NCBI RefSeq assembly: GCF_032854445.1
Contig: NC_088295.1
Location: 45,247,385 to 45,311,384, forward strand
DNA from: Liolophura sinensis
Lineage: Eukaryota > Mollusca > Polyplacophora > Chitonida > Chitonidae
Reading direction: 5' to 3'
Length of the DNA stretch: 64,000 nt
In this document: positions 7,140 to 42,700 of the stretch, one piece after another
Layout of the letters: every line of letters begins with the position of its first letter
Numbering within the stretch: position 1 is the first letter of the stretch
Position numbers and translations under genes: made by a program
Notes under the pieces: generated by a model
Database searches by the model: none
Seen by the model: only the letters and a program-made list of their open reading frames with translations
Told to the model about the DNA's origin: nothing

Positions 7140-7785
7140 ATTAGTATGATTTGCATTCACAACTATCCACGTATGTAATTTGTGCTTTAATGATATGCCT
7201 TCAACCTTTGTGGCGCACATGATTTGTATTCACAACTCTCCACGTATGTATTTTGTGCTCTGATGTTATGCCTTCAACCTTTGTGGCGCACATGATTTGT
7301 ATTCACAACTCTCCACGTATGTATTTTGTGCTCTGATGTTATGCCTTCAGCCTTTGTGAAGCACATGATTTATATTCATAACTCTCCACGTATGTATTTT
7401 GTGCTCTGATGATATGTGTTCAGCTTTTGTGACGCACATGATTTGTATTCATAACTCTTCACGTATGTATTTTGTGCTCCGATGATATGCCTTCAGCCTT
7501 TGTGAAGCACATGATTTATATTCATAACTCTCTACGTATGTATTTTGTGCTCTGATGATATGCGTTCAGCTTTTGTGACGCACATGATTTGTATTCATAA
7601 CTCTTCACGTATGTATTTTGTGCTCTGATGATATGCGTTCAGCTTTTGTGACGCACATGATTTGTATTCATAACTCTTCACGTATGTATTTTGTGCTCTG
7701 ATGATATGCGTTCAGCTTTTGTGACGCACATGATTTGTATTCATAACTCTTCACGTATGTATTTTGTGCTCTGATGATATGCCTC
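7140..7785. repeat. 73-bp tandem repeat, about nine copies
   Basis: The unit contains 'cacatgatttgtattcat', 'aactcttcacgtatgtattt' and 'gtgctctgatgatatgc'. Spacing between successive 'cacatgatt' blocks is 73 bp (for example 7216 to 7289). The last copies are nearly identical, suggesting recent expansion. Confidence 0.92.
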
Positions 7786-8859: not shown

Positions 8860-11800
8860 TTATGCGCCTTGCTTCTGTTGCTCACGACGTCTGGTGGTGA
8901 ACATGAACACGACAATAACCATGGCAACAAGCAGCAGCACGGCTAGGACAGCCACGGTGACGATGAAACCAAGGCTTTGCATGCACGTGACGGCATTAGA
9001 GCCGTCCTCAGTCGTATGACCTGTAAGAAAGGTAACCATTATACAAGACCATGTTCTCTAAGTCGTCTCATTGTCCCGTTATGTGAACTCAAGGAATTTG
9101 GATTTAATATAAAATCAAACGTCAGATCCGTTACAAGGCCAATTATGTTAATAATAACAGACATAATGGCGAACGACATATATTTGACTGTTGGCAATTG
9201 GTTATTGGTATAGACGGTATAGCTTTAAAAATAGATCTCTCTACATACAGGTGTAAATAGGAAGTATATTAAGTTCTTACTTGGTTGTGAAAAACATAGT
9301 GGCGATAGACACGGGAGTAAGAGGTGCGATATACTCACTGGAGGACGGTAACTGTACACCCGCTGGGAGAACGAATAACTTTGTCGACAACTTCAGGGTC
9401 TCATCTTCTGTAGGTTCGTCGTCAGCAGCTCGCCTCTTTCTCTTTCCTGGTACACCACAGTTATTCTGTCAAATAAACCAGAAACAAATATTTTTAATGC
9501 CTTCAGGAAAAGTTATTCATGTATTATTTTTCTTCCAGTGGTTACAATTTACACAAGGTAGCACATACTTCTTGAGAGGTCCATTAAATGTCTCTGGCAT
9601 ACACTATAAATTATACCAGCGTGTTATATCGGTATACGACCTGATATTTTCGTCGATATGATCGATATTGGGAAACTAAATATTGATCACCTCGATCATC
9701 TCGTTGGCTGAAGTACCTGTATAGCCAACCCTTGCTGTGTTTTCTAGGACCCTTTCCCGGATAAAGGAGCAAGCCTGTTTCTTATAGCTAGTTGAAAGTT
9801 TGTCACACTATCTTCTTTCACTATCTTTTTTCATAACTGCTCGTGGTAGTCACTTTCTTATACTCAGTCAAAGTATTACTGAGACAAAGTATACAGAGAC
9901 AGATGTACGCGTATGATATCGTGAAATGTAGACAAATGCCTCAAGAGAGCAGGATAGATTTTGAAATATAATTACCCTGTTACAAAAAACAATATAAACA
10001 ATACATGTAACGTCTGCTTTATAATGTTCTGAGAGAGGTGTAATAAATTGCAATCAGTATGGTGACTTTGTTTGAGCACTATACATCAACCATCGGAACC
10101 AAAGGAACTTTCAGTGTCAAGGGATCCGTTTTGCAATGCTTACGCAACCCTGTTTCAAACGCATTTATTTTGATGATGCATGTTTTCAGTAGGTGTTGTC
10201 GTGGAGGATTCGCCACGCAGGCGCATGACTGCTTAGTAAAACTGGCTGCAGAACAGCAATCTCTGTCACTTACCCCGTCACAGTTGACAGGACAGATGGT
10301 CGCTTCAACGTCAAATGTGACGTCATTGGAACCTGATCCTTCAAGAGCGAATAATGTCACGGGAAATGTTGCTACTAATCCAGCCGAGATGAACCCGTCT
10401 TGGACAAACAGAGGGCCGTATGGGGCCACCACACAACTAGAAAAATGAAGGACATACCGAATACAAAGGCGACAACATTGAGATAAACCCCCAGAGCGGA
10501 GACGACGGTGTGACAGTTGGCAAATGGTCACACGAAACGTGTGAAATTAGACCTCTGATCAATTTACCTCTAGGTTTTGTCCAATTGTTCATGTAAAAGT
10601 TTGAAAAGTTGAAACCTTGGCGCCTCACATAGATCATTGTCTTAAGCAGAACTAGGTATAATATAGGTAGGTTAACTGAAATGTATTATACGCCACTGGC
10701 TGAAAACAATGTGTTACAGGCCTCAGTTCTGGAAGCCATTGATCAACGACCAGTTAATCATAGTTGATGCAGGATTTTCATTTTGAGAACAAAAAATTCA
10801 GTAAATTAAGTTTCATTTGTTCATTCAACAATCTTGACTTCACTTTAGAATGGAACTCTCCATTTTTCATCATTAGTTCAATCATATCAGCTCATAAATT
10901 GTAAATTTGAATACAGAAATGAAGTTTATAAGCATTGATAAGCATCTGTGATGACAACACGGCCTGGTGTACCAGATAAAAATAAGGCACGAGTAGGGTT
11001 GTTGTTTTGTACACAGAATTTTCATGGATGAGAGAGACTCACTAATTATCGATAATGTTTACGCTGATCGTTCCGCTTGATACGTTCATCTGTTTAACTT
11101 GTACACCATTTTCATCTGAAAAACATCATCCAAAGCATAATTATGAACTTGTTTAAGTTTGTTACCATTTTAGACGGAGCGCTGAAAAATAAGTTCAGAA
11201 ATGACAAAATGATGTATTGGGTATCCAAGATCTGTAAAAACGTCCGGTACTTCATCTAGGTTATGATTTTACCAGTTATGATAATTTGTCTTAATTATTC
11301 GAGGAGTGCCGTTCGATATATAAAAGTCAAAAATATTGTTGTGCACAAGGCACAAACATGTACCGTTACATGTCAGAAGAACATTTCCTTTTGACGAAAA
11401 TGTCACATTCTGAAACATAGGGAATATCACAATTTTAATGGATGTACATATCCCCATCGGTGCCGCTCATGCTAACTTGAAGAGTGACATAAAATAAAAG
11501 TTAAGTTGAAACATCTGCCATCTGTTTTCGGCGCTGTAATGTTGTAAATAGTGCACTTTTTTGTATATATCCCAATCAAGTGACGAAAATGTCAAGTTCT
11601 AAAACAAAGGGGATATCAAAATTTGATTTATGTACAAACCAGCATCAGTCCCGCCCATTCTAACTTGTAGAGTGACATCGTCACCAAACAGTGCTGTAGT
11701 TGTCACTGCATTTGTAGCGTCTAACAACTCAAGCGTGTATGTCTGATCGCCAGGTATATCTACAGGAATATCTTCGGTCGTGGCAGGTCCTCCACTGTAA

Positions 11801-14669: not shown

Positions 14670-15164
14670 GCCACCGCTACCTGACCTTAATCTTTGCGGT
14701 TTTCAATTGGGCGCGGCCACCTCCGTACAATGCATTTAAAGACGTTCTTTGACATGATGAGAAACTGTTGAATTGTTATGAATAAATAATCATTCCTTTT
14801 ACGATTCGAGTGAATGCTGGTACTTGGTGATATAAGCAGGGATTCCTTTTGGAAAAAAGAAATGGTACTATAAATGTATTTCAATATGAATACATATAAA
14901 AGTATGATTTGACCCGAAATTGTCCCTTTTAAAGCTCGGTCCTTTACATTTCTATCTGTGTGTATTGTGTCATATGAATTGAGAATCAACATGAAGGTGG
15001 TGAAAAAGCCGTATTCACCTAGATAACGTAAAAGAATTAAAGACCACACATAATTTTTCATCAACATACACTGGTTGAAGCACAGCTTAGGTAAAGTTAG
15101 GCCTATATCTTTTTCCTTTTGTTTCGACGATAGGGCCAACTTATTACTACTTATATCCTTGCTG

Positions 15165-16112
15165 TAACATACGGGGTGTAGGTCTGTATCCTTGCCGTCA
15201 CACGGGGTGTGTAAGTCTGTATCCTTGCTGTCGCACGGGTGTGTGTAGGTCTGTATCCTTGCTGTCACACGGGATGTGTAAGTCTTTATCCTTGCTGTCA
15301 CACGGGGTGTGTAGGTCTGTATCCTTGCTGTCACACGGGGTGTGTAGGTCTGTATCCTTGCTGTCACATACGGGGTGTGTAGGTCTGTATCCTTGCTGTC
15401 ACATACGGGGTGTGTAGGTTTGTATCCTTGCTGTCACACGGGATGTGTAGGTCTGTATCCTTGATGTCACATACGGGGTGTTTAGGTCTGTATCCTTGGT
15501 GTCACACGGGATGTTTAGGTCTGTATCCTTGCTGTCACACGGGGTGTGTAGGTCTATATCCTTGCTGTAACATACGTGGTGTAGGTCTGTATCCTTGCTG
15601 TCACACGGGCTGTGTAAGTCTGGATCCTTGCTGTCGCACGGGGTGTGTAGGTCTGTATCCTTGCTGTCACATACGGGATGTAGGTCTGTGCCCTTGCTGT
15701 CACACAGGGTGTGTAGGTCTGTATCCTTGCTGTCACATACGGGGTGTAGGTCTGTGCCCTTGCTGTCACACGGGGTGTGTAGGTCTGTGTCCTTGCTGTC
15801 GCACGGGGTGTGTAGGTCTGTATCCTTGCTGTCACATACGGTGTGTAGGTCTGTGTCCTTGCTGTCACACGGGGTGTGTAGGTCTGTATACTGGCTGTCA
15901 CATACGGGGTGTAGGTCTGTGTCCTTGCTGTCACATACGGGGTGTGTAAGTCTGTATCCTTGCTGTCGCACGGGGTGTGTAGGTCTGTATCCTTGCTGTC
16001 ACATACGGGGTGTAGGTCTGTGTCCTTGCTGTCACACGGGGTGTGTAGGTCTGTATCCTGGCTGTCACACGGGGTGTGTAGGTCTGTGTCCTTGCTGTCA
16101 CACGGGGTATAA
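15165..16112. repeat. 33-bp minisatellite, about 28 copies, upstream of ZP-A
   Basis: The unit is approximately 'tgtaggtctgtatccttgct' followed by 'gtcacacggggtg', with a subtype carrying 'cacatacgggg'. Because 33 is a multiple of three, long frames stay open on both strands, giving 11-residue repeats such as HTPCDSKDTDL. No start context, splice site or neighbouring domain supports translation. It ends about 500 bp upstream of the ZP-A TATA box. Confidence 0.93.
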
Positions 16113-19109: not shown

Positions 19110-19482
19110 TAATATGAGTGAGCGAGTGCTTGGGGTTTAACGTCGTACTCAACAATTTTTCAGTCATATGACGACGAAGGAATCTTTAGGGTGCATGTAC
19201 GTGTAACGTGCCTCCTTGTAGCAGGACGGATTTCCACCCCTCTTTTATTTAGTGCTGCTTCACTGAGACAACTTACCGAAGGCAAGTAAGTTGCCCCGCC
19301 CGAGCCATTATACTGATACGGGTCAACCAGTCGTTGCACTATCCCCTTCATGCTGAACGCCAGGCGAGGAAGTTATAACTTCCTCTTTTAAAGTCTTAGG
19401 TGTGACTCGATCAAGGATTGATCCTGGATCTACCGGTCCCGAAACGGACGCTCTACAAACTGTGCTATCCGGGCCGGTAGGA
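19110..19482 (-). mobile_element. CTCA-tail SINE, near full length
   Basis: A complete copy from the 'gagtgagcgagtgcttgggg' tail to the tRNA head 'gctatccgggccgg'. 'aattaatatga' occurs on both sides (about 19107 and 19481), a plausible target-site duplication. Confidence 0.9.
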
Positions 19483-20545
19483 ATTAATATGAACAGTGTC
19501 ATGTAATAACTTGGCTCAACATGCCAATTAATACGAACGATGTCATGTACTTGCTTATTTCAACATACCATTAATATGATCGGTGACTTGTAATAACTTG
19601 ATTCAACGTGTGAAATAATATGAACGGTGTCATGTAATAGCTTGGTTCAATATGTCAGTTAATATGAACAGAGTTATGTAAAGTTATGTAAAGTCATGTA
19701 ATAACTTCGTTCAACATGCCATAAATATGATTGGTGTCTTGTAGTAACTTGACTCAACATGTGAAATAGTATGAAAGGTGTCATGTAATAGCTTGGTTCA
19801 ATATGTCAGTTAATATGAACGGTGTCACCTAATAACTTCGTTCAACATGTCAAATAATATGAACGGCGTCATGTTATAACTTGGCTCCACATGCCAGTTA
19901 ATAGGAACGGTGTCATGTAATTGCTTATTTCAACATGCCATTAATATTATCGGTGTCTTGTAATAGTTTGATTTAACATGTGAAATAATATGAACGGTGT
20001 CATGTAATAGCTAGGTTCAATATGTCAGTTAATATGAACAGAGTTATGTAAAGTTATGTAAAGTCATGTAATAACTTCGTTCAACATGCCATAAATATGA
20101 TTGGTGTCTTGTAGTAACTTGACTCAACATGTGAAATAGTATAAAAGGTGTCATGTAATAGCTTGGTTCAATATGTCAGTTAATATGAACGGTGTCACCT
20201 AATAACTTCGTTCAACATGTCAAATAATATGAACGGCGTCATGTTATAACTTGGCTCCACATGCCAGTTAATAGGAACGGTGTCATGTAATTGCTTATTT
20301 CAACATGCCATTAATATTATCGGTGTCTTGTAATAGTTTGATTTAACATGTGAAATAATATGAACGGTGTCATGTAATAGCTAGGTTCAATATGTCAGTT
20401 AATATGAACGATGTCATGTAAGAGCTTTGTTCAACATGCCATTAATATGATCGGTGTCATGTAATAACCCAGTTTAATATGTCAGTTAATATGAACGGTG
20501 TCATGTAATTCCTTGGTTCAACTTGTCTTTACTGAACTATCTTCC
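19483..20545. repeat. About 44-bp tandem repeat with 370-bp higher-order structure
   Basis: The unit resembles 'aatatgaacggtgtcatgta' plus 'ataacttggttcaacatgcc', with about 24 copies. A block containing 'gagttatgtaaagttatgta' recurs at 19671 and 20041, so a whole multi-unit block was duplicated at a 370-bp offset. No coding potential. Confidence 0.9.
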
Positions 20546-35729: not shown

Positions 35730-38700
35730 TTATGCCCCTTTCGTCAGGCACTCTCCTCGCCGAATGGTAAGCAACGTTATTACTGTAACCATGGCGACGA
35801 ATAGCAGAATAGCGAGAACAATCACTGTGACAATTAAACCGAAGCTATGTATACACATCACGGAACTAGGCGCTTTCTGACTTCCTTCACCTGTAAAAGA
35901 AATACATAACAATGCCATCAGAATGTCTCGTTGGAACATCACACACATCGCCCCAATCGCGAATCCCCAAGACAAGCAAAATATCAGCTTTATTTCTTTG
36001 CAAATACTTTTGCAGTTAAACTCAGAATTTATGTCGGAATCCCGAGTTTATTTTGTGAAGGGCTGTGAAAAAGAAAAACTCGGTATTATCCAGAGAAAAT
36101 TCGAGATAACTGACCAATGATAATGCTACATAATTTCGGAGAATATGTATGTAGGCTTGGGGTTTTACGTTGTACTTAACAATTTTTCAGTCATATGACG
36201 ACTAGGAGTCATCAAGTTTGTGTACAAATACTGTGTCTTCTGTGTCGATTCCATGTCGCCAAAGTGCTGCCGCCACTGAAGTATCATGCCGAAAACACCA
36301 GACATGACACCCCCATTCAGTCACATTATACTGACACCTAGCCAACCAGTCCTGTTTCCTTGCTCAAACCTCTCCATTCAGAGCCCAAGCGAGGCAGCAA
36401 CATGTGCCAGGCTTTTTAAAGCCTTTGGTATGACCCGACCCGGACTTGCTTTGTGATGATTCTTGAAACGTGATCGTGGTTGGTGACGACGTATTTATCT
36501 TACTTTATACTGACGTGGAGCTCAGTCATCCAATCTACGATGGGTCAGTTATGCCTGGTTATATCTAGAAATGAATGAACGAGTGATTATGACTGAGTGC
36601 TAGTTCGGTCTACGAAATACGCTAAACAGATGCTTGATTATACTGCCTCTGTAAGTCCAGGCTATGACCACGGACATCCGAGTACATGTATGAGAACACT
36701 TTTATCCAACTGATTACATGATCTGATTACGTAGTCTGTGCTAACCTTGTTTATCGGAAGTTAATACGCTGAACGGCAGAATTATTAGCCTGGTCGCCAT
36801 GGTTACGGACTTTTCATCTGTCGATGTATCTCCAGCAGTTCGTCTCTTTCTTTTTGCTTGCGGTCCACAGTTTTCCTGCAGGGGGGAGTAAATCAGCAAA
36901 AAATATTTTTTCTACGATCAAAACGTTTTGGATTCTATGATCATAAGTCCTTATATAGCGTATTATCTTCAGTGTTAAAACTCTTTTTTCACATATTGGA
37001 AAGTATAAAACCAGAGAACTGACGGCGGTATGACAGTTGGCAAATGATCATTCATACGCAACTGGGGAAATCCAGCCTCTTGTCACTTCACGTCATGGTT
37101 TACGTAATGGTTTTATTCCAACTATTCGTGTAATTTCTCAAACAGCAGCACTTACACGCCTATCAGCGAATGCTGTTAATTATTAGATTTATTAAATCGT
37201 TTGTATAAAATTAATCAAATGACGTGTTGTGAACACATTAAATAAACAGTAAGAATGAGATGAAAAACATAAAAAATATGAAAAGATGTATTCTTTCTGC
37301 GTGTCACTTAATTGCTGCCATATTAATGTTTATTCATTTCTTTGATTGATTGTTTTATTACGCCATACTCAAGAAGATTCACTTATATGAAGATGGCCAG
37401 CTTTATGGTGGAAGAAAACCGAAGAAAATCCACAACCATCCGTAGGTTCCCACGTACGGCCGGAGTGGAAACCAGCACGAGCGGGACACTGTATTATATT
37501 GCCTATGTTCGGTAACCTTTCTTTAAAACTCGAGACCATCTAAAGCTTATGCCAAACTTATGATAAGTTCGGATGACTCTAAGACACCATGCTACATTTA
37601 ACCATTTGTGTTTTGCTCGTATGTCACATATGTCTACCCCTCTTCTCTCCTCTTCTATAGGCGATACATTTTTTATGTTTAATATATTGTAAAGGTTTAT
37701 ATCTCACCCCAAGACATGGCCCCGGGCAGATCACCGACAAACACTCAAACTCCACTTGGGTTAAATCTGATCCTTCAAGGGCAAACAGTGTGAGAGGGAA
37801 CTTTGCTGACATCGATTCAGAAATGAAACCAGTTTCTTGAAACAAATCCTGATAAGCCACTACAACGCAACTACAAAGGTAAAAAGTATTGTGAATATAA
37901 CGGAAAATCGTAACGTTTCTGATTCAGTCTGGGGAAATTTTAGGATTTAAACTTCAGAATCCGATCATTCAAGGGCAAATAATGTGAGAGGGAACTTTGC
38001 TGACATGGATTCACAAGAAACAGCTCCTGAGAATCGGCTACAACATATTAAACTAAAACGTAAAACCTATGGTGCATTTAACCAACAAACGTAACTTTTG
38101 TAGTTTTCTAGAAAAAAAAATGATCTCAGCTTTATTTACCAAAGATTCTATACGCATCTTCTGTCTTGTGCGAAATCCCTCTTGATACAACATGCACTGT
38201 ACAAAAAATTCATCAGCGGGTTACGTCCTGGTTCCAATTTAAATTTAGATTCGCACTTAAAAATTAGCAAGACATTGAAAACTTACAAGTCTTCTATAAA
38301 CGTCATGCTGATATTTCCACTTCTTAACAAACAAGACAGGACCTGGACGCCTTGTTCATCTGAAAATATATGTCAATATTATTGTATAATAAAGTCTTTA
38401 GCAGAACAACAGAAAGAGACACGTTTAACATGTGTGAGCCTTGGGTAATACAAAAACATGACCATCTGAATGATATTTACAGCGCAATCACGGTTACCTT
38501 AATTCTTATTCGACCACTTTAGGAATACAGAAATAAAGGAAGCCCAGACACTGCACCTGACAAAAATCTTGTTTGTACGTAAAGCTTCACCCTATTTTTT
38601 TTCTTTTGTATCAATGGCGGCCTTTATTATTTTGTCTCTATATAACTGCTATGCCTTAATTTGAACCCTGAACTTGAATAAAATCATGATATAAATCGAA

Positions 38701-39625
38701 CTAGGCTACGTTCTTACAGGCCGACTACATACAATCATTATCCTTTTTGAGTTTTAACGATGTTACGCCCTTTTTACGATTCTAATCCCTGCAACTTCCC
38801 TTATTTGCTCATCCCACATGACACATGCGACGTTTACCAAATGTCTCGGACAGCGTTAACAACTGAACATTCTGGAATTGACCTGGTAGGCATCTCACTA
38901 TACACAGATTGATTAACTAATCCATTGATTGTACCTGCAGCATATATACAGAGTAAAACCAGAGCAGCGACGTATGTGTGATAGCTGGAAAATGGTCACA
39001 ATTAACCACATCCGGCGTCTTGCCAGTTTACCTTGGTTAGGGTTATAATTCAACTGTTCATGAAAAATGTTTAAAAAGTAGAAACTTACATGCCCTTTAA
39101 CACCATGACTTATAAGGAATTTGGTAAAAAAAGGCGCATTTATGTTAATTGCAGTTTATTAGGCATCACTGGACTAGAAATACTCTGTGTTGTGTTGTCA
39201 TCACATTTCTTGGCAATTACATGAAGTAGCATTTCGCTTATATCACGGCGTTCAGGAATGTGCTAGGAGGAAACTGTACAGAGAGAGCCATCTGTAGAGA
39301 ATAATATGTACAAACTTAACCAGCATCTGTAGCGTCCATCTGAACTCGTATGAAGATGTCATCTCCGAAGTTTGCTTCTGTAATGACATTCTCTGCAGAG
39401 TCCAGAATCTGAAGGGTGTATGTCCCGTTGAAGTCCCCTTGTGCACTCACAGTATGGCTGATTGGAGACCCACTGGCAAAACAAAAGTAAATTCACATAA
39501 AATGGCGTTCATTTCGAATGGGCTGGATCTCGTAGTATACACAAAGTTCGGTGAAAGAGGTCACTAAAATTACCGGCATGGTATAAGACAAAAAATTGTC
39601 AGTACAGCGTTAAACGACAGTCAGA

Positions 39626-39700
<75 letters not shown>

Positions 39701-42700
39701 ACAAACAAACAAACAAATAAATAAATAAATAGATAAATAAATAAACACGACGGGGCCTGGTAAGTAGAGTAAACCTGAACCGAGGTCATGTTCATGTATA
39801 CATAATACAACGTGTTCATAATTTATACATATAACTGTAAATGAAATACACACAGGAAAATCTCTTCTCTTCCATGGATTCAGCACGTTGATATACAGAG
39901 GACCGCTATCAGGGATACCGGTGTAATACCAATACTCAAACGTTATCGTTGATTTAGCAGATAAACTTACAGTGGCCCGCCATCAGGTAAAAGTGTTGTC
40001 AGGGTAATATTGGAGGCATAATACGAACACTCAAACTTAATCGTGGTTTCAACGATTGACTTGCAGAGGCCTCTCGTCAGAGACAAGTGTTGTCAGGGTA
40101 ATATCAGAGGCATAATATGGACACCCAAACTTAATCGTGGATTCGACAGACTGACCTGCAGAGGCCTGTCGTCAGGGACAAGCGTTGTTAGGGTAATATT
40201 GCATTTGTAACAGGAACACTGAAACCTAATCGCGCATGATTCAACAGACTGACTTACAGAGGCCTGTCATCAGGGGCAAGGGCTGTCAGGCTAATATTAT
40301 CGGTGTAATACGAATACTCAAACTTAATCGTGGATATAGCAGACTGACTTATACACTAGCCCACCAGCAGGGAAAATATTATCGGTGTAATACGCATACT
40401 GAAACTTAATCATGCATGGATTCAGCTGATTGACTTACAGAGGCCCACCATCAGGGACAAGGGCTGTCAGGGTAATATTACCCGTGTAGTACGAACACTC
40501 AAACTTAAACGTGGGGTCACTTTGCTGATATACTCCGTCAAATTCCTGCAATGTCACTTGTAGATAATACAAAGGTTTATTCAAGTCCTGTAAAGAACGA
40601 AAAGAGAAAATATAGTAGACAATAATAAAAGGAAAGTAGAGTTAGCATTACGTTTACAAGATAGTAGATGTCATAAATGGCTCATAATGATGTCATGAAG
40701 TATAAATTGCAGGCTAGGTACATAATAAGGCGGGAGTGAGTCGTGACGAAGTGGTTATGATGATTTTATTATTGATGAGATAGAAGATCTCAAGGATAGG
40801 GCAAGGACTTTGTGGATTCATCAGCTGTCATTGTTAGTGGAACCTGAAAGATAATAGAGCTTAGGCGAAGCGCGAGTTGCGCGTTTGCACAGTCAGTCAG
40901 TAACTTGCCCAAGCTTGGTGATTTATCCAGGCCACTCCGGTTTGAGTATTGAGTTAAACAACAATCAAATATGAACAAATCACTACCATGTCATTTAGCT
41001 GAGCGCCTGTGTATGGGCTGTTAGAGAATACTGATGAATATACTTTTCAACCTGTCTTCGTGGGTTTCCCCAGGCTGTACCCGGTTTCCTCCCACCATAA
41101 CACTGGCCGCCGTCGAGTAAGGGAAATATTCTTGAGTACGGCGTAAAATACAAATCAAATAAATCTAACAAATCAAAAGTCTAAAACTAATATTACACTT
41201 GTCACGTTTTACAAATTGAAGAGAAACGAATGCCGAAGATTTAATATGGCTAGCAGCGTTTAGCAGATCTGTTATTTCGATTGGGACGATGTATTTGTGG
41301 AACACAATAGTTCCACGCGCTGACAAACGGTTTGTCGTGATCTCCATGCATGGAATTCAGTGCCAAGAAAGGCTATGAAAAAGGTGTGTACAATATGAAC
41401 TTCACTGGTCTCATCATTTAGGCTTGCGATGGCAGCCAGCTACCGAATCATACATTTTCCACATCGAAGCACACACTAGAAACGAAGTAACTCCGACTCA
41501 CTCACCTGAAAAGGCCACTCGCCGCCATTTTGTCGCTTGCAAAAATCAACTTCCGTTCTTGATTACTACTTTACTCCAACAGCAAATGCGACAAGGCATG
41601 CGCCAATACAAGCACCCGGAATTGTATCTGTAGAGCCGACAATATGGTGGCGAGTAGCCTGTCCGGGTGAGCGTATAGGAGATGTTTCGTTTCTAGTTTA
41701 TCACACAGGCTGTAACGACGCCAGAGGTAAAACTGCAAGATGCAAGGGGCAACTTTGAACTGGGTGATATCTTTGACGATGGTACATATACTTTATTTCA
41801 CTAGTCGTTGGGACAGGTTTGGCCAGGTTGGACACGACTCGGGAATTAAACGCCCAGAGTCTCAATACCACATTGAGACAATCATACATGTGAACACGTC
41901 TACGTACGGGCTGGTCAATATCACAGTCAGCGCGTGGGTCAGAGATCGTGAACACCCCCGCGGTTCCCGTATCTGCACACGTTGCTTTGTTTCCAGGACT
42001 GGACATCTTAACAACCAAGTTTGTACCTGGACTGGGGTTAGTATAATTGATACTAATCGGTCCACCTTCATCTGTCCCACAATCCACTTCAACTGAAAAA
42101 CATATAAAGAATATATACGCATGTATGAAGAGAACGTAAGCAAAAGAGTTGACCCTAAAAGCCTGCTAAATTACACAGGTTTGTTGTTGTAACGGGGTTT
42201 CCTTTCCCGCGCAGTGGCGACCCTACTTCAAGCTGAATTAACCGTTGTTCGTGTTACAATGAATGAGTAATACGTCACCAGTCTGTCCACAAAACGTCAT
42301 CGAAAAAGTAGGAATAAACAACATAATACACAGCTTAGGCCAAAATTAGGTCATGCCGGAAACGGTCGCCATTGCTGCAAGGACATTCCTGTACCAGAAA
42401 TACTCTAAAGATGACGGGGACTGTAACATTTTAACAACTCCAAGATTTTGGCTCGGCTGCGAAGTCGTGGCAGAAAAAGCATTTGTTCTTTATAGATAGT
42501 CAAGTAACAATGGGTTTAGCACCATGCGAGACCCCCTCCCCTGCGTATCTCTGTTTTTTCATCCTCGGACTGATCTTCGTTATTGCTTGTAAACTGACCG
42601 GCGGAACTGTCGTCGTCAGCTTTGTTTCAGTTCAAACTGATAGCCTTGTAAGCCGAAATGACTTACTCTTTCATCAGAGTTGGAGCTTGCTTTTTTGATT

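Follow-up and report, generated by a model that had tools for sequence, protein, structure and literature searches.

A decaying minisatellite that probably derives from an exon-intron boundary in intron 5 of a ZP-type gene of the chiton Liolophura sinensis

In this study, six head-to-tail units were identified where intron 5 begins in ZP-B, the middle member of three ZP-type genes lying on the minus strand of the window (i.e., the whole 64,000-nucleotide stretch of Liolophura sinensis DNA that was analysed). The array occupies positions 39,897-40,438, with U1 starting at the exon 5 donor, and we consider it, with a probability of about 0.9, to be an inert, decaying minisatellite that spans an exon-intron boundary, of the type called 'mirage' in amphioxus. 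In this scenario, a segment of approximately 99 nt across the exon 5 donor (around 75 nt of exon and 24 nt of intron) would have been tandemly duplicated once, at the start of the intron, and later duplication within the array, presumably by unequal exchange or slippage, would have raised the number of copies to six. The copies would be intronic and drift without detectable selection; splicing would ignore them and, by using the real donor, remove them together with the intron. An array of exon 5 fragments had been pointed out in the initial annotation, which also put forward inert minisatellite growth seeded on an exon; the existence of the array directly after the exon 5 donor was confirmed, and the inert reading is favored by the neutral-like divergence of the units and by a unit built on the exon-intron boundary.

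The three genes of the minus strand have exons in common (Table 1). ZP-C showed 99% agreement with isoform X2 of L. sinensis LOC135480804, with the single visible difference located at a hand-set joint, and LOC135480804, which has PF25272 in the database, was 52% similar to the ZP-B protein. In the protein alignment, moreover, ZP-B displayed KRKRR (furin-like site) and a hydrophobic C-end (transmembrane end), both named by eye; from the similarity to ZP proteins, the furin-like site, and the transmembrane end, ZP-B is predicted to be a ZP-domain gene. A Pfam search with ZP-B at 1e-3 yielded no hit, VERL_C matched ZP-C at 23.8 bits (under the Pfam cut-off of 27.2), and a sequence search of the Protein Data Bank returned no match. 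In the protein database, three length ranges were searched and no entry of its own was found for ZP-B, its neighbor ZP-C having one.

ZP-B was open, with splice sites, from the so-called exon 4 through the transmembrane end, and candidate first exons were placed at ~43.6 and ~43.1 kb on weak similarity or a signal-peptide look only. The exon numbering of the initial annotation was kept; the P0001 protein is without an exon between its second exon and the so-called exon 4, so that 'exon 5' would be the fourth coding exon. The cysteine of exon 5 was invariant across four aligned proteins. Furthermore, the counterparts of exon 5 in ZP-A and ZP-C terminate at an identical place, and the end of this exon is therefore old.

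Table 1. Positions in the window of the ZP-type genes, of the exon 5 region of ZP-B, and of the array units (unit lengths by alignment).
Feature	Position	Strand	Details
ZP-A	~8.9-12.7 kb	minus	
ZP-B	35.7-43.6 kb	minus	middle of three ZP-type genes
ZP-C	51.2-58.6 kb	minus	
ZP-B exon 5	40,439-40,587	minus	149 nt; second part of ZP-N domain, with its cysteine; end CCTCT^GTAAGT
ZP-B intron 5	39,473-40,438	minus	
ZP-B exon 6	39,320-39,472	minus	next real exon; low end approximate
U1	40,355-40,438	minus	84 nt, 15-nt internal deletion; Cys codon TAT; end gtataa
U2	40,258-40,354	minus	97 nt; Cys codon TAT; end gtaagt
U3	40,160-40,257	minus	98 nt; Cys codon TGT kept; end gcaggt
U4	40,065-40,159	minus	95 nt; Cys codon TGT kept; end gcaagt
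U5	39,971-40,064	minus	94 nt; Cys codon TGT kept; end gtaagt
U6	39,897-39,970	minus	74 nt, 21-nt internal deletion; Cys codon TAT; end gtatat
Tail past U6	39,873-39,896	minus	resembles intron 5 start, then departs from repeat; right edge of founder

The array was detected by TRF (score 435, period 95, 4.5 copies) and by blastn against itself (best E 9.5e-80). Each unit opens with the intron start (GTAAGTCAATCAGCTGAATCCATG in U1), continues with the 3'-terminal 71-75 nt of exon 5, minus the deletion in U1 and U6, and terminates just ahead of the following donor-like site. The 'spacer' of the unit is, in fact, the beginning of intron 5 itself, and the 5' half of the exon is missing from all six units in both the self-comparison and the alignment, as the initial annotation had stated. 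The earlier unit size of 86-98 bp holds for four of the units and fails for the two short ones (U1 and U6), which carry internal deletions. The donor-like variants gtaagt, gcaagt, and gcaggt had been correctly recognized, and gtataa and gtatat also occur; the described loss of the cysteine codon in some copies corresponds to a TGT to TAT change in three units.

Since the spacers of U1 and U3 are longer than the others, a founder of ~99 nt is suggested, the tail past U6 marking its right edge. Where the aligned exon part begins, all six units have A, unlike exon 5 and the ZP-C exon, which have T, and for this reason a single founder, and not several rounds of copying from the exon, probably gave rise to the units. 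A unit made entirely of exon was also considered, given that the spacer seemed similar to exon 5 slightly upstream (GTATATCAGC...); this candidate was rejected and the spacer taken as intron-derived, because the tail past U6 matches the spacer better (by eye). Support in the unit tree was weak (28-75), and nothing was drawn from the order of the units.

Regarding selection, the initial annotation had proposed aligning the coding half against the spacer, naming uniform neutral divergence as part of what would speak against a role for the copies, and this neutral pattern was indeed observed. Among units, 227 of 900 compared bases differed in the exon-derived part (25%; summed by hand from the alignment) and 68 of 295 in the spacer (23%; 20 hand-picked gap-free columns, likewise summed by hand), with pairwise unit differences spanning 18-38%. 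Differences were spread evenly over codon positions (99/97/112 for all seven copies, exon included), and single-difference codon pairs among units were synonymous in 34 cases and not in 77, giving a synonymous share of 0.31 vs 0.26 ± 0.08 expected from 3000 neutral simulations (P 0.28). A codon model, run on the weakly supported unit tree, estimated omega at 0.78 for the units, with no real gain over omega 1 (lnL -291.82 vs -292.07), and at omega 0.1 the fit was worse by 19 lnL units (lnL -311.16); when the exon was given an omega of its own, the units came out at 0.70 and the exon branch at 0.22. Coding constraint on the units was consequently rejected, on an omega indistinguishable from 1, even codon positions, and a synonymous share as in neutral simulations, and purifying selection on the coding part, as a bank of coding or mutually exclusive exons would have, was not detected.

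Exon 5 itself behaved as a constrained sequence when compared with ZP-C, with a best grid omega of ~0.1 (lnL -357.5 vs -371.9 at omega 1), a rough value from a coarse grid with its optimum at the branch-length grid edge. Differences from ZP-C by codon position were 11/9/18 of 26/26/26 in the 5' part, which is absent from the units, and 10/5/15 of 24/24/23 in the 3' part, denoting no clear difference in constraint between the two parts. Weak signals against the inert reading may be seen in the open frames and in-frame deletions of the units. The exon frame is open in 6/6 units, for which the neutral chance was 0.26 on the tree and 0.11-0.30 on a star tree, and 0.076 when an equally high synonymous share is required as well; the two internal deletions (15 and 21 nt) both have lengths divisible by three (chance 1/9 by hand). 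The product for open frames, synonymous share, and in-frame deletions is ~0.008, a figure combined after seeing the data.

The initial annotation had also raised the possibility of a bank of alternative donors, in which exon 5 would sometimes be lengthened to the donor of one of the six units, so that altered or shortened ZP-N proteins would result. Scores of real donors in the three ZP genes ran from 2.0 to 10.0 (15 sites, leave-one-out), and the unit ends from U1 to U6 scored 0.4, 8.1, 1.7, 3.8, 9.4, and 2.5, so that the GTAAGT sites after U2 and U5, within the range of real donors, could be recognizable as donors on a matrix of only 15 sites that includes exon 5's own donor, identical in nine bases to that of U2. 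By length, the downstream frame is kept with extension to U1, U3, or U5, and changed in the other three cases. However, exon 5 read on to any of the six unit donors runs into TAA at codon 51, GTAAGT is kept at just two of the six unit ends, and GT sites that score no lower than the weakest real donor number 8 in the array stretch, counting the one of exon 5, where 400 random stretches contain 8.9 on average, which leaves this proposal unsupported and very unlikely. Equally little credit is given to an intermediate of intron gain or exon birth, where a unit would be used, or be becoming used, as a separate exon. Units do have donors and open frames, and a comparable route has been proposed for amphioxus globins (PMC3087553), but, apart from the undetectable coding constraint, the acceptors of the array are no better than chance. 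The best of its 32 AG sites scored 4.2, with 19 of 21 real acceptors scoring higher when left out of their own matrix (built from 21 sites), and in 88% of 400 equally long random stretches the best acceptor was better. Units acting as exons through an array acceptor were rejected on this basis, and the acceptor ahead of each unit that a bank of coding or mutually exclusive exons would have was not found among these sites.

A gene-conversion bank, the other functional role put forward in the initial annotation, would consist of frame-keeping, unspliced copies that occasionally donate tracts to exon 5, diversifying the ZP-N strand between chitons. With ~75 nt of homology adjoining the exon, an open exon frame in every unit, and both deletions in frame, this idea has its attractions, and if it were true, the open frames and in-frame deletions would be traces of a two-way flow of sequence between exon and array. 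Against it, exon 5 is unlike all six units at three positions, the units diverge in a neutral-like manner, and the exon is under purifying constraint vs ZP-C with its 5' and 3' parts not clearly different; hence, conversion is regarded as highly improbable, both as an account of the array and as an occasional source of ZP-N diversity. Finally, tandem repeats are prone to collapsed or stuttered reads, but units that are 18-38% apart are therefore not repeats of one read, and an assembly artefact is the least probable explanation of all; PacBio HiFi reads are reported in the Liolophura genome paper (PMC11068029), from whose assembly this window may come.

The inert, boundary-spanning minisatellite finds its closest comparison in the 'mirages' of amphioxus, described in the globin genes BflGb6 and BflGb9 and in Adh3, TnC, and PGBD5, as exon-intron boundaries repeated in tandem in a minisatellite-like manner, with splice signals in many units (PMC3087553; PMC3902484). 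Mirages are reported to hit 5' as well as 3' boundaries, with unit lengths of 10-72, 60, 108, and 150-160 nt (PMC3087553; PMC3902484); RT-PCR suggests that splicing is undisturbed, and haplotypes carry different numbers of copies (6 and 3) (PMC3087553). The chiton array shares their structural features, being tandem and minisatellite-like (TRF period 95; six aligned units), with a unit of the same order of length that spans the boundary and its splice signal, and adjoining the authentic boundary. It differs in its molluscan host and in lacking homogenized units, since divergence here is 18-38% whereas identity of 81-100% is given for BflGb6. Homogeneity was not taken as defining mirages, because the PGBD5 copies, which were added together with TnC in PMC3902484, are imperfect and still compared with mirages in that source.

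Other systems resemble the array in part. Human genes of segmental duplications carry internal tandem repeats at boundaries, likewise by minisatellite expansion, but these differ from one paralogue to another and change introns in a way supported by transcripts (PMC2812944). Splice signals copied by local duplication are the theme of PMC2891723; the chiton case differs from that system in an exon end common to three paralogues, with neither a new intron position nor an acceptor above chance. How boundary repeats can make introns is treated in both sources (PMC2812944; PMC2891723), and of the intron-making features testable in the chiton array, namely an acceptor and selection, neither was found. 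In abalone VERL, as here, ZP-N sequence is repeated in a molluscan ZP gene, with 23 ZP-N domains, but the VERL repeats are protein domains (PMC8830517) and the chiton units are intronic half-exon pieces. In this context, our data would extend to a mollusc the boundary-spanning minisatellites named in amphioxus. Among the matches listed from the open-access literature, no earlier molluscan case was found: an abalone intron minisatellite with 27-bp units appears there with no exon origin stated in the parts available, and a paper on hemocyanin introns, as far as its available text goes, is without a boundary-spanning case. Such an array has perhaps not been described before in molluscs, within the scope of those matches.

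The locus also provides a local base rate, in which partial duplication of exons is about as frequent as that of introns. Local copies within 4 kb were found for 3 of 25 exon stretches (12%; some edges approximate, first exons of ZP-A absent from the set), and for 27 of 300 control placements inside the ZP genes (9%) and, across the whole window, for 78 of 300, exons and the three exon-derived copies being excluded. A looser control, whose placements could land on exon-derived copies and for which exon overlap was checked at five points only, gave 46/300 and 81/300, respectively. Special targeting of exons by duplication was rejected, the exon and control rates being close; inside the ZP genes exons stand slightly above controls, on three cases, and are not clearly preferred as far as these counts suggest. 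Since exons carry local copies about as often as controls, duplication appears to strike widely and to survive as intronic debris.

Two further exon-derived copies were observed on the minus strand. One, at 37,958-38,021 (extended to 38,099), reproduces the beginning of ZP-B exon 8 together with preceding intron sequence, has an in-frame stop, and sits in the intron ahead of the real exon 8; the other, at 11,413-11,490, duplicates the donor side of ZP-A exon 6 once, within the intron that follows, and has AT aligned to the donor GT. In addition, a ~107-nt repeat is present at 41,058-41,164 and in ten other places in the window, on both strands and 77-89% alike where matched; this probably represents a short dispersed repeat, with a SINE-like character by impression only. 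Seven merged minisatellite arrays (period of at least 20, at least 4 copies; TRF rows picked by hand), the ZP-B array included, cover 4,076 nt of the window. Large minisatellites outside the ZP genes lie at 15,154-16,108 (33 nt x 28.7), at 19,482-20,527 (44 nt, partly within a 370-nt unit), and at 7,146-7,784 (73 nt x 8.8).
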